Assembly: GCA_020628065.1 (NCBI GenBank)
Contig: JAHDFR010000042.1
Location: 1-32,169 of the forward strand
DNA: 32,169 nucleotides
Source: Acidimicrobiales bacterium
GTDB lineage: Bacteria > Actinomycetota > Acidimicrobiia > Acidimicrobiales > SZUA-35
Direction: 5' to 3'
The notes beneath the pieces were generated by a model that was given only the letters and a program-made list of their open reading frames with translations, made no database searches and was not told where the DNA came from. Position 1 is the first letter of the stretch. Every line of letters begins with the position of its first letter. A program made the translations under genes and the position numbers. Positions 17,500-21,001 of this stretch are shown here, piece after piece.

Positions 17500-18873
17500 T
17501 CAGAGCCAGATGTCGCTGGTGCAGTCGCCGCCGGGATAGCGGGTCTCGTGGCATCGGCTGGGCCCGTTGGGTTCCTGACCAAAGTTGACCATGAACTCGG
17601 AGTTGATCGTCATGCCGCCGCTCTCGACGTCACAGTCGATCATCACCATGACACCGCCTTTGGTCCGAATCTCGGGATAGAACTGGTTGTCCCAGGTCGA
17701 AAACAGCGATGTGGTGACGTACATTCGCTTGCCGTCCAGCGACAACTGAAACATCTGAGGCCCGCCGGCGATCTCCACCCCGTTGACTTCGGGGGCTTTG
17801 CCCAACAAGCCTCCCATCCAAACCTGCCCGGTCAGAACCGGATTGTGAGGATCGGTGATGTCGTATTGCCGCATGTCGCCGTGCAGCCAGTTGTTGATGT
17901 AGAGGTACTTGTCGTCCATGGAGACGAGGAGCGCCGACATCACACCCGGTAGCGGAATCGGCCACTCAGGGTGAAGCTGATTCTCGACGTCGACCGTCTT
18001 CTCCCACTGCCAGGTCCCGTCGTCGCCCTTCCAGAAGTGGATGATGTTGGAGCTAAGGGCGGCGCAGCAGAAACCGTGGGTCGACTCCGGGTCGTGCATG
18101 AACTTGACCTCGAGCGGAAGGAGCCCGTCCTCTCCCAGATACATGGTCTGTATCGGCTGACGTTTCTCGAAGTCCCACACGTGGAGCCGACGCCCGTATT
18201 TGAGGTGACCGACTTCTTCCAGGTCGAAGCCGGGCATGAACGTGTTGGGGGCCGCCCATTCGGACGTGACCATCACGTTGTGTCGGGGCTGGTACCAAAA
18301 GTCGTAACCGAAGGGAATGTCTCCCATCGAGTTTTCCCACCGACCGACGATCTCGAAGTCCTTGTTCACATGCAGGTAGCCGCCGGGGGCTTCGCCTTTG
18401 GCATCTCCCAGGAAGGAAATGATGATGTCGGAGCCGAGGCAGTGAACGGTGTGGGGTCCGGACAGGTCGGCCTTGGCCTTGATCTCATCGCCATCAATGA
18501 TGGTGTGCAGGCTCGGTGCCCGAGGGTTGGTGGCGGTGTCCACCACGTAGATATTGTTCGATCGCACACCGGGCAGGAGCAGATACTGTCGGCTCATCGA
18601 CGAGTCATCGTGACAAGAGGAGCAGGCGTTCCAACCGGTGTGGTGAAGTTCATCTCCGATGTTTGGCATCTCGAGACGGTGGATCACCTGTGAGTAGGTC
18701 GGGCTTTCGGGGTCGGCGTCCAGGGTGGCCAGATAGTCGGGCTTTTGAATGCCGGTACCGGTGTAGAGCGCCACGGTGTAGAGCAGCTTCTCTCGAGGGG
18801 CCTTGATTGCCTCAGCCGGAGTTGCGTAGCCCGGTCCACAGCAGCTGTCTTTGGTGTCCGCTTCTGTGCCCAC
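17500..18873 (-). CDS. Selenium-binding protein SBP56 / methanethiol oxidase homologue
   Basis: About 457 residues of the SBP56 family. Bacterial members have been shown to be copper-dependent methanethiol oxidases that turn methanethiol into formaldehyde, hydrogen sulfide and hydrogen peroxide. Visible family signatures are CCGPGYATP and APREKLLY at the N-terminus, NACSSCHDD (Cys84 and Cys87), GPHTVHCLG, DPESTHGFCCAAL, LSLDGKRMYVT and the C-terminal RYPGGDCTSDIW. No signal peptide is present, unlike the periplasmic Hyphomicrobium enzyme, so it should be cytoplasmic. A GTG at 18915 would extend the frame, but it lies inside a 13-bp tandem repeat; I prefer the GTG at 18873, which has AAAGGGGA about 10 nt upstream. 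It heads an operon with ferredoxin and a CoA-binding protein and is divergent from an IclR/DmdA-like unit. The usual SCO1 and MauG-like neighbours are absent. Confidence 0.9.
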   Translation of the reverse strand: MGTEADTKDSCCGPGYATPAEAIKAPREKLLYTVALYTGTGIQKPDYLATLDADPESPTYSQVIHRLEMPNIGDELHHTGWNACSSCHDDSSMSRQYLLLPGVRSNNIYVVDTATNPRAPSLHTIIDGDEIKAKADLSGPHTVHCLGSDIIISFLGDAKGEAPGGYLHVNKDFEIVGRWENSMGDIPFGYDFWYQPRHNVMVTSEWAAPNTFMPGFDLEEVGHLKYGRRLHVWDFEKRQPIQTMYLGEDGLLPLEVKFMHDPESTHGFCCAALSSNIIHFWKGDDGTWQWEKTVDVENQLHPEWPIPLPGVMSALLVSMDDKYLYINNWLHGDMRQYDITDPHNPVLTGQVWMGGLLGKAPEVNGVEIAGGPQMFQLSLDGKRMYVTTSLFSTWDNQFYPEIRTKGGVMVMIDCDVESGGMTINSEFMVNFGQEPNGPSRCHETRYPGGDCTSDIWL

Positions 18874-18896
18874 TATTGGCTGTTCCCCTTTTGCCC

Positions 18897-18987
18897 TGTC
18901 ACTCGGTTGTGTCACTCGGTTGTGTCACTCGGTTGTGTCACTTGGTCGTATCACGTTGCCGTGTCACTTTACGGTGCCACTTTGGCG
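18897..18987. repeat. 13-bp tandem repeat array, seven units, in a divergent promoter
   Basis: Seven head-to-tail 13-bp units occupy the spacer between the methanethiol-oxidase-like gene and the IclR gene. Units 1-3 (18897-18909, 18910-18922, 18923-18935) are identical TGTCACTCGGTTG. Unit 4 is TGTCACTTGGTCG, unit 5 TATCACGTTGCCG, unit 6 TGTCACTTTACGG and unit 7 TGCCACTTTGGCG. The core TGTCAC is kept in five of seven. Identity is highest next to the oxidase gene and decays toward IclR, as expected if the array grows by slippage at one end. The 13-bp period is not helical. It could be an array of regulator sites, or a length-variable spacer that tunes the promoter. Confidence 0.9.
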
Positions 18988-19010
18988 TCTCGACTGTGAA
19001 TATCGTAGAC

Positions 19011-19038
19011 TGAGACTCCCATTCTCGCAATATGAGAC
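19011..19038. promoter_or_regulatory. Candidate IclR operator with alternating half-sites
   Basis: GAGA at 19012-19015, TCTC at 19023-19026 and GAGA at 19034-19037 alternate with an exact 11-bp offset, giving two overlapping inverted repeats and a TGAGAC direct repeat 22 bp apart. The site lies 20-47 bp upstream of the IclR start and just downstream of a -10-like TAGACT (19006-19011), where a repressor could block. Inference from symmetry. Confidence 0.4.
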
Positions 19039-19057
19039 CTACCATTCGTCTTGATCC

Positions 19058-19813
19058 ATGCACCTCGAACGTTTAGCACTCATACTTGAAATCGTTGGTC
19101 AGAAGGACGAGGCCACAGTCGCCGATGTCTGTGCACACTCCGACCTGCCCAAGCCGACGGCCTACCGCCTTGTCAACGATCTCACCGAAGCAGGCCTGCT
19201 CGACCCTGTCGGCAAAGGACGCTTCACTGTCGGAAACCGCCTTCGCCGAATCACCGAGGGTGACCAGTCGGACCAGGCACTGCTGGAAACCATCGCCCCC
19301 GTCCTAGCCGGAGCCGCCAGTGAGCACGGCGCTACCTTCTTCTTCTCCCGCCTCAGGGGTAAAGCAGTTGAAATCATCCACGTAGAAACGCCTGATACCG
19401 GGGTCTCGTTCCTGCATCCTGGTCTGGGCAAGCGCCCTCTACACGCCTGTTCCTGCTCAAAAGCTGTCGCCGCCTTCTCCCCCGCTGTCGCCGGTGCCGT
19501 CGCCGACCGGCTAAAGGCCTATACAGAATTCACGGTTACCAATACAGAGGACCTCCGCCACGAGTTCGAGCTGATCCGGAGTCGCGGCTATGCCGAGTGC
19601 GTCGAAGAACTGGAGCGCGGCATGTGCTCGGTGGCAGCCCCACTACCGACCATCAATGGCGAACCGACAATGTCGATTGGAAGCACCGGCTCGATTCGTG
19701 TTTTCAACCCGACCTACCGACAGAACATCGGGGCCGAGCTGATCGCCATGGCAGACCAGCTGTCCCAAAGGCTCGGTTGGACCGCAACCGAACCGACCAT
19801 CAATTCGGCCTGA
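19058..19813 (+). CDS. IclR-family transcriptional regulator
   Basis: A 251-residue regulator. The N-terminal winged helix-turn-helix (about 1-68) shows ATVADVCAHSDLPKPTAYRLVNDL and a GRFTVG wing. The C-terminal IclR effector domain has the family's HPGLGKRPLHACSCSKAVAAF and RGYAECVEELERGMCSVAAPL segments; the two Cys of ACSCS and the Cys of GMCS are in the ligand pocket region. The ATG at 19058 has only a weak ribosome-binding site. It is followed 24 bp later by the DmdA-like gene and is divergent from the methanethiol-oxidase-like operon, so it is well placed to control both. IclR proteins usually sense an intermediate of the pathway they regulate. Confidence 0.92.
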   Translation: MHLERLALILEIVGQKDEATVADVCAHSDLPKPTAYRLVNDLTEAGLLDPVGKGRFTVGNRLRRITEGDQSDQALLETIAPVLAGAASEHGATFFFSRLRGKAVEIIHVETPDTGVSFLHPGLGKRPLHACSCSKAVAAFSPAVAGAVADRLKAYTEFTVTNTEDLRHEFELIRSRGYAECVEELERGMCSVAAPLPTINGEPTMSIGSTGSIRVFNPTYRQNIGAELIAMADQLSQRLGWTATEPTINSA

Positions 19814-19837: not shown

Positions 19838-21001
19838 ATGACTCAACCCGAGGACTTCGGCTTCGGAACACAAATTCGCAAGTCGCCGTACTTCGACGCC
19901 ACCGTCAGGTGGGGGGCAACGGGCTTCTCGGTGTACAACCACATGTACATCCCCAGGGACTTCGGTGACCCGGAACAGAACTTCTGGAACCTGGTCAATG
20001 ACGCCATCCTCTGCGACGTGGCGGTTGAACGCCAGGTTGAGATAACAGGACCGGACGCCGCCAGGTTCATGCAGACCCTCACTTGTCGGGACCTCTCGTC
20101 AATGGCCGTAGGCCAGTGCAAGTACATCTTGATCACCAACGCCCAGGGCGGGCTGCTGAACGATCCCGTGCTGCTTCGGCTGGGCGAGAACCACTTCTGG
20201 ATTTCCCTGGCCGACAGCGACATCTTGCTGTGGGCCCAGGGCGTAGCCGTGCATGCGGGAATGGATGTCAACATCGGCGAACCCGACGTCTCACCCCTCC
20301 AGCTGCAAGGCCCCAAGTCGGGCGAAATCATGAAGGCACTCTTCGGTGACGGCATCTCCGACCTCAAGTACTACTGGCTTCGCCATGTCGAACTCGACGG
20401 TATTCCGCTGGTGGTGTCCCGAACCGGCTGGTCGAGCGAGCTCGGCTACGAGATTTACCTCCAGGATGGCTCACGGGGAGATGACCTGTGGGAACTGATT
20501 ATGGCAGCCGGTCAACCGATGGGCCTGAAGCCGGGTCACACCTCTTCCATTCGGCGTATCGAGGGCGGCATGTTGTCCTACCACGCCGACGCCGACATTC
20601 ATACCAATCCGTTTGAGCTCAACCTCGACCGCCTGGTCAATTTGGATGCCGAAGCCGACTTCATCGGCAAGGATGCGCTGCGGGCCATCAAGGCCCAGGG
20701 TGTGAGTCGGAGACAAGTGGGCCTGGTGCTCGACGGGCCTGCGCTCGCTGGACCGAACACCTCGTTCTGGCCGATCGTGTCGGACGGCGCAAACCCAACG
20801 GTTGGAAGGGTGACCTCAGCCGTCTACTCACCTCGGCTGGAGAAGAACATCGCTCTGGCCATGGTTGCGGTGGACGAGACGGCAGTGGGAACAAGGCTGA
20901 CGGTGCACGCCGGTCACGGCCCGTTGGAAGCGACGGTCGTCGAGTACCCGTTCTTTGATCCCAAGAAGTCGATCACCACGGGCCAGGCCGCCACGGCATG
21001 A
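19838..21001 (+). CDS. DmdA-like aminomethyltransferase-family demethylase
   Basis: A 387-residue GcvT-fold protein on the branch that contains the DMSP demethylase DmdA. Shared wording with DmdA proteins, as I remember them, includes FSVYNHM, VERQVEITGPDA, RDLSSM, GGLLNDPV, FWISLADSDILLW, EPDVSPLQLQGPKS, RIEGGMLSY and VGRVTSAVYSP. DmdA moves a methyl from dimethylsulfoniopropionate to tetrahydrofolate, leaving methylmercaptopropionate. Differences exist: this protein has GYEIYLQD where DmdA has GGFEIYVEG, so it may be a paralogue with another methylated substrate. A GAGAGG ribosome-binding site precedes the ATG. It is the second gene after IclR and is divergent from a methanethiol-oxidase homologue, which is the context expected for DMSP use. 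Family call firm; DMSP activity moderate at best. Confidence 0.8.
   Translation: MTQPEDFGFGTQIRKSPYFDATVRWGATGFSVYNHMYIPRDFGDPEQNFWNLVNDAILCDVAVERQVEITGPDAARFMQTLTCRDLSSMAVGQCKYILITNAQGGLLNDPVLLRLGENHFWISLADSDILLWAQGVAVHAGMDVNIGEPDVSPLQLQGPKSGEIMKALFGDGISDLKYYWLRHVELDGIPLVVSRTGWSSELGYEIYLQDGSRGDDLWELIMAAGQPMGLKPGHTSSIRRIEGGMLSYHADADIHTNPFELNLDRLVNLDAEADFIGKDALRAIKAQGVSRRQVGLVLDGPALAGPNTSFWPIVSDGANPTVGRVTSAVYSPRLEKNIALAMVAVDETAVGTRLTVHAGHGPLEATVVEYPFFDPKKSITTGQAATA

Follow-up and report, generated by a model that had tools for sequence, protein, structure and literature searches.

Bacterial minisatellites, or VNTR loci, consist of short non-coding units arranged head-to-tail; they are lineage-specific, and identical copies lie in them beside diverged ones. 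The 13-bp tandem array described here, located next to a gene of the SBP56 (methanethiol oxidase) family in an Acidimicrobiales bacterium, resembles these loci in its non-coding head-to-tail units, in its lineage specificity, and in the presence of identical copies next to diverged ones. VNTR loci, however, vary in copy number between strains, whereas the comparison made here covers one genome per species.

Direct repeats have also been described in marine Beggiatoaceae, where the heptamer TAACTGA forms about 169 sets of direct repeats in one genome, most of them upstream of a start codon. These repeats are mostly intergenic and have been suggested to act in translation (PMC4679880). The array is similar to them in being a set of direct repeats, intergenic and upstream of a start codon.

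The gene pair that flanks the array also has a described counterpart. In Ruegeria pomeroyi, an IclR gene is found directly upstream of mtoX, in a predicted operon, and both genes are transcribed more strongly in response to methanethiol, DMSP, and MMPA (PMC5739008). As in that locus, an IclR-family gene adjoins here a gene for an SBP56-family oxidase; unlike in R. pomeroyi, the two genes are divergent and lie beside a DMSP-demethylase-like gene. The word "tandem" has no occurrence in the main text of PMC5739008, and among the best-ranked matches of a literature search, no repeat array was found at an SBP56 gene.

The window, by which we mean the whole stretch of 32,169 nucleotides that was analysed, carries the SBP56 gene on the minus strand (17500–18873, 457 aa from the GTG at 18873, a start assigned by comparison with relatives). 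Its product matches the Pfam family SBP56 with 672 bits (when scanned from 18915), while it reaches only 151.8 bits against the NCBIfam MtoX equivalog, whose cut-off is 650, and "methanethiol oxidase" is therefore a family-level name for this gene. The divergent regulator is encoded on the plus strand (19058–19813) and holds the Pfam domains HTH_IclR and IclR_C; its best NCBIfam matches are BhcR (85.7 bits, cut-off 350) and PcaR/PcaU/PobR (68.3 bits, cut-off 284.75). Directly after it, at 19838–21001, a GcvT-like gene follows; among NCBIfam models it matches DMSP demethylase best, its 362 bits falling short of the cut-off of 410. The proximity of this gene to the SBP56-family oxidase makes a DMSP/methanethiol locus possible.

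Structure of the array and its comparison with congeners

Seven 13-bp units, of the type GTGACACAACCGA in the sense of the SBP56 gene, follow each other head-to-tail at 18897–18987 (minus strand). TRF gave two matches in this region, one at 18897–18954 (period 13, score 95) and another at 18935–18967 (score 38). Across the array, 64 of the 78 period-13 comparisons are identities, a value equalled in none of 20,000 shuffles, and the diverged units 4 to 7 taken alone retain 27/39, again equalled in 0/20,000. These results bear out the seven head-to-tail units of the preliminary description, and such an arrangement, beyond chance by both TRF and the shuffles, is that of a minisatellite. It is non-coding and frame-breaking, as shown by its period of 13 and by the stops that soon follow those of its GTG triplets that are out of the SBP56 frame.

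Units 1 to 3 (18897–18935), which adjoin the SBP56 gene, are identical and likely represent the youngest copies; two mismatches separate unit 4 from them. The mismatches to the seven-unit consensus, from unit 1 to unit 7, are 1, 1, 1, 1, 5, 4, and 4, which describes a step and no smooth gradient. Accordingly, the three identical units reported earlier were recovered, while the progressive divergence attributed to the other four was not. A conserved TGTCAC core had also been claimed for the units. This hexamer is exact in five of the seven, with deviations in units 5 and 7, and when the best six-column window over the five distinct unit types was compared with column permutations, 5,640 of 20,000 were as conserved (five unit types provide low power), which leaves the claim weak. 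Much of TGTCAC is nevertheless still kept in the diverged units, an observation that counts against a near-neutral minisatellite.

The comparison set comprised 11 other genomes of the genus, one genome per species. Close relatives of both the IclR regulator (69–77% identity) and the SBP56 protein (88–92%) are present in five of them; in one of these (G007), the pair is split across two contigs, of which the one with SBP56 (C23) covers the spacer and the start of the IclR gene. Alignment of the spacers revealed that the array is absent in all five congeners that keep the divergent pair, and an exact GTGACA is found in none of their spacers. The other six genomes have no SBP56 match and are hence uninformative about the array. 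Its presence in related genomes, on which the preliminary description had made its own proposal depend, is thus contradicted, and the array would most simply have arisen in this lineage, by insertion or expansion. Absence from the sister species is also compatible with a newly gained role.

The conserved block and the leader of the SBP56 gene

A block of 54 bp (18993–19046, minus strand) aligns gap-free in all six species, with 19 of its 54 columns invariant as a raw count; because the pattern used to locate and cut it was built on TCTCA/CGATA, the columns of these motifs are favoured. From the six-species alignment, a candidate −35 element of SBP56 (TTGCGA, 19025–19030) and a candidate −10 element (TACGAT, 19002–19007) were recognized on the minus strand with a spacing of 17 bp. 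The combination TTGCGA-N17-TACGAT is likely to be the SBP56 promoter, a candidate obtained by comparison alone; a plain sigma-70 consensus scan did not report it.

The candidate promoter is overlapped by three boxes of alternating direction that are aligned in the six species: GTCTCA, an inverted TGCGAGA, and GTCTCA. Box 1 is weaker in three species (G009, G007, and G006). In G006, boxes 2 and 3 change together, from GAGA/TCTC to GGGA/TCCC; in G003 and G008, a single side of the dyad formed by both boxes is altered alone. Among 77 centres, this dyad ties for second place with one other (26 of 48 cells, the best centre showing 27/48), and a palindrome made up of boxes 2 and 3 is only suggestive.

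Published binding sites of IclR-family regulators include some with three boxes of alternating direction, and the three-box sites of PcaU, PobR, and HmgR resemble the block at 18993–19046 in that alternating boxes adjoin the regulated gene (PMC8222616). In contrast with those sites, the boxes described here, known from sequence alone, fit the family consensus GKTYCRY given in the same source inexactly. The block is a candidate three-box site and the likely IclR operator, and it is a better lead than the array. The proposal that the array itself holds multiple regulator sites is not supported by these data, as the conservation of its core does not significantly exceed that of the other unit positions and the conserved operator- and promoter-like sequence is located outside it.

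The array sits between the candidate −10 element and the Shine-Dalgarno sequence of SBP56. Because the conserved promoter-like block is on its IclR side, the array is probably transcribed as part of the SBP56 mRNA leader, and not placed between the two transcription units, as had been stated. Since it is outside the −35/−10 spacer, it would not tune the spacing of the SBP56 promoter, another role suggested for it, and would instead lengthen the leader. Between the end of CGATA and the start codon of SBP56 there are 127 nt here and 36 nt without the 91-bp array, a length inside the 32–51 nt of the relatives, which was counted in favour of a lineage-specific insertion.

The array also bears on the start of the SBP56 gene. 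It contains seven minus-strand GTG triplets, of which that at 18915 is in the SBP56 frame (471 codons); of the remaining six, five open 9-codon frames and one a 3-codon frame. The GTG at 18873 (457 codons) is preceded by AAAAGGGGAA, and the Shine-Dalgarno-like region AAAAGGGGAAC of the gene extends over 18882–18892 (minus strand). In four of the five relatives, the Shine-Dalgarno sequence is GCAAAGGGG or GCAAAGGAG, with a weaker AGGGAG in G006, and the ATG of their SBP56 genes stands at about the position of GTG 18873. On comparison of the two sites, GTG 18873 is the better supported start, and the upstream GTG 18915 is probably spurious. This agrees with the preliminary description, in which GTG codons supplied by the array in different frames were held to create a misleading upstream start for the oxidase gene.

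Origin and possible roles of the array

The explanation that we regard as probable is that of a lineage-specific minisatellite in the SBP56 leader, which probably arose by slippage and contributes little or nothing to regulation. According to this model, a short stretch between the −10 element and the Shine-Dalgarno sequence of SBP56 would have been tandemly duplicated in an ancestor of the species, and the array would then have grown via slipped-strand mispairing or unequal recombination. On this view, age and divergence would increase along the array, from the youngest copies next to the oxidase gene to the oldest and most diverged ones next to the promoter. Expansion by slippage at one end, already suggested in the preliminary description, fits the identical units near the SBP56 end. 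We infer that the array is transcribed, that it originated by slippage, and that it affects expression little or not at all.

It is unlikely, although it is the rival that survives best, that the array is a transcribed leader element in which the number of units tunes SBP56 translation or mRNA stability, in a manner similar to that of VNTR loci. Its position between the −10 element and the Shine-Dalgarno sequence would suit such a function, as would the lengthening of the interval between CGATA and the start codon from 36 to 127 nt, and the six added GTG triplets that open frames of 3–9 codons. The predicted accessibility of the start codon is also somewhat lower with seven units (0.55) than with none (0.70); across 0–7 units, however, it is irregular (0.42–0.71), and that of the Shine-Dalgarno sequence shows little change (0.83–0.94). 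Moreover, no unusual RNA fold was found in comparison with shuffles, either in the leader (z of 0.56) or in the array alone (−1.07), and the array is not conserved. An RNA switch was also considered and rejected: positions 18600–19300 yielded no Rfam match, there is no fold signal, and the Shine-Dalgarno accessibility is nearly constant with unit number.

A newly gained element, in which the units would set oxidase expression by their number, acting either within the SBP56 mRNA or, at the DNA level, as imperfect half-sites for IclR (GTGTCA versus GTCTCA), appears quite improbable. If true, methanethiol use could be tuned rapidly within the species.

Slightly less probable still is that the neighbouring IclR regulator, or some other DNA-binding protein, binds the array as a set of low-affinity or decoy sites. 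On the plus strand of the array, GTGTCA is found four times and GTATCA once, and both differ from the GTCTCA box at a single position, but about 0.8 such hexamers would be expected by chance in 91 bp when both strands are counted (with even base use), and repetition multiplies any such occurrence, while the exact boxes are located in the conserved block, outside the array. Tandem sites have been predicted for many IclR-family regulators; nevertheless, the published ones are palindromes with centres 18–22 nt apart or three alternating boxes (PMC8222616), whereas the units of the array all point the same way and recur every 13 bp. In addition, the array is missing from the five sister species that have the pair.

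Similar arrays elsewhere and meaning of the locus

Frame-breaking arrays, with periods that are not a multiple of three, are common in this genome: 18 were found in 875,282 sampled bases, two of them scoring above the 95 of the array described here, their coding status being given by a stop-to-stop measure only. The score of the window's array lies in the upper part of this sample, which was counted against the minisatellite explanation. The 73 pieces sampled are not random, since they include contigs with IclR paralogues (C297 and C286), with weak similarity to the array (C196, C274, C237, C287, and C63), and with pattern matches (C179, C165, and C239), and they exclude the pieces of C257 and C302, which hold both known 13-bp arrays. 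The periods of the 18 arrays are 8 (1), 10 (1), 13 (3), 14 (4), 16 (3), 17 (2), and 19, 20, 22, and 23 (1 each), with no peak at 13; when C257 and C302 are added, period 13 becomes the commonest (5), both contigs having been chosen for their arrays. Even-step sampling of 26 contigs (228,129 bases) gave 23 arrays with a score of at least 50, whatever their period, and a single first-order Markov simulation produced none.

A second 13-bp array with the GTGACA core is present in the same genome (L045 1463–1532, on C302), upstream of a tatA/tatC-like pair, named from a reading of the translations. A third 13-bp array (L252 7364–7426, on C160) has an unrelated unit, TCTAACTTTGTGC, and is located where no long reading frame is present. 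An array of another genus of the family, at about 10168 of L232 (G013, C22) and with other neighbouring genes, has a unit, GTGACACGGCAAC, that is identical to one unit of the window's array. Both the core in common with the C302 array and the GTGACACGGCAAC unit in common with G013 count against the minisatellite explanation, and both could be coincidence.

Among 39 genomes of the family, the pattern for 13-bp arrays of GTGACA matched in eight (18 matches, nine of which correspond to the two arrays of this genome, G000). The control patterns gave similar figures: 7/39 for reversed GTGACA (15 matches), 9/39 for AGGTCA (13), and 6/39 for reversed AGGTCA (11). The GTGACA core is not over-represented in the 13-bp arrays of the family. 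An over-representation of one core like that of TAACTGA was thus not found (8/39 genomes versus 7 and 9 for controls), and unlike the network of PMC4679880, only two core-bearing arrays were found in this genome, with control cores as common in the family. With a step of 15 bp, matches appeared in 24/39 genomes and also in many for the reversed control; this step, as a multiple of three, admits coding repeats and provides no clean control. A scan of public genomes retrieved at least 115 stretches, and 89 of the 115 matches listed have two N7 spacers alike at six or more of seven places, indicating arrays of arbitrary units; the same holds for 9 of 21 stretches in a viral scan. No taxon with a special class of arrays is indicated among the matches listed in either scan (at least 115 public-genome and 21 viral).

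That dispersed 13-bp GTGACA arrays constitute a regulon-like network in the family is barely credible: core-bearing arrays do occur upstream of the tatA-like gene of the same genome and in G009, G013, and G020, with an exact unit shared with G013, but the control patterns, reversed ones and AGGTCA included, appear at about the same rates (8/39 genomes versus 7/39, 9/39, and 6/39), the C160 array has an unrelated unit, and arrays of arbitrary units account for 89/115 public-genome stretches (of at least 115 matches) and 9/21 viral ones, and this candidate was dropped.

At this locus, then, an eye-catching repeat beside a regulator gene is probably a lineage-specific insertion, and the conserved, probably working sequence adjoins it. 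The analysis also corrects what is likely a wrong start of the SBP56 gene. For the divergent IclR/SBP56 pair and its DMSP-demethylase-like neighbour, the block at 18993–19046 provides a specific hypothesis of where operator and promoter lie.
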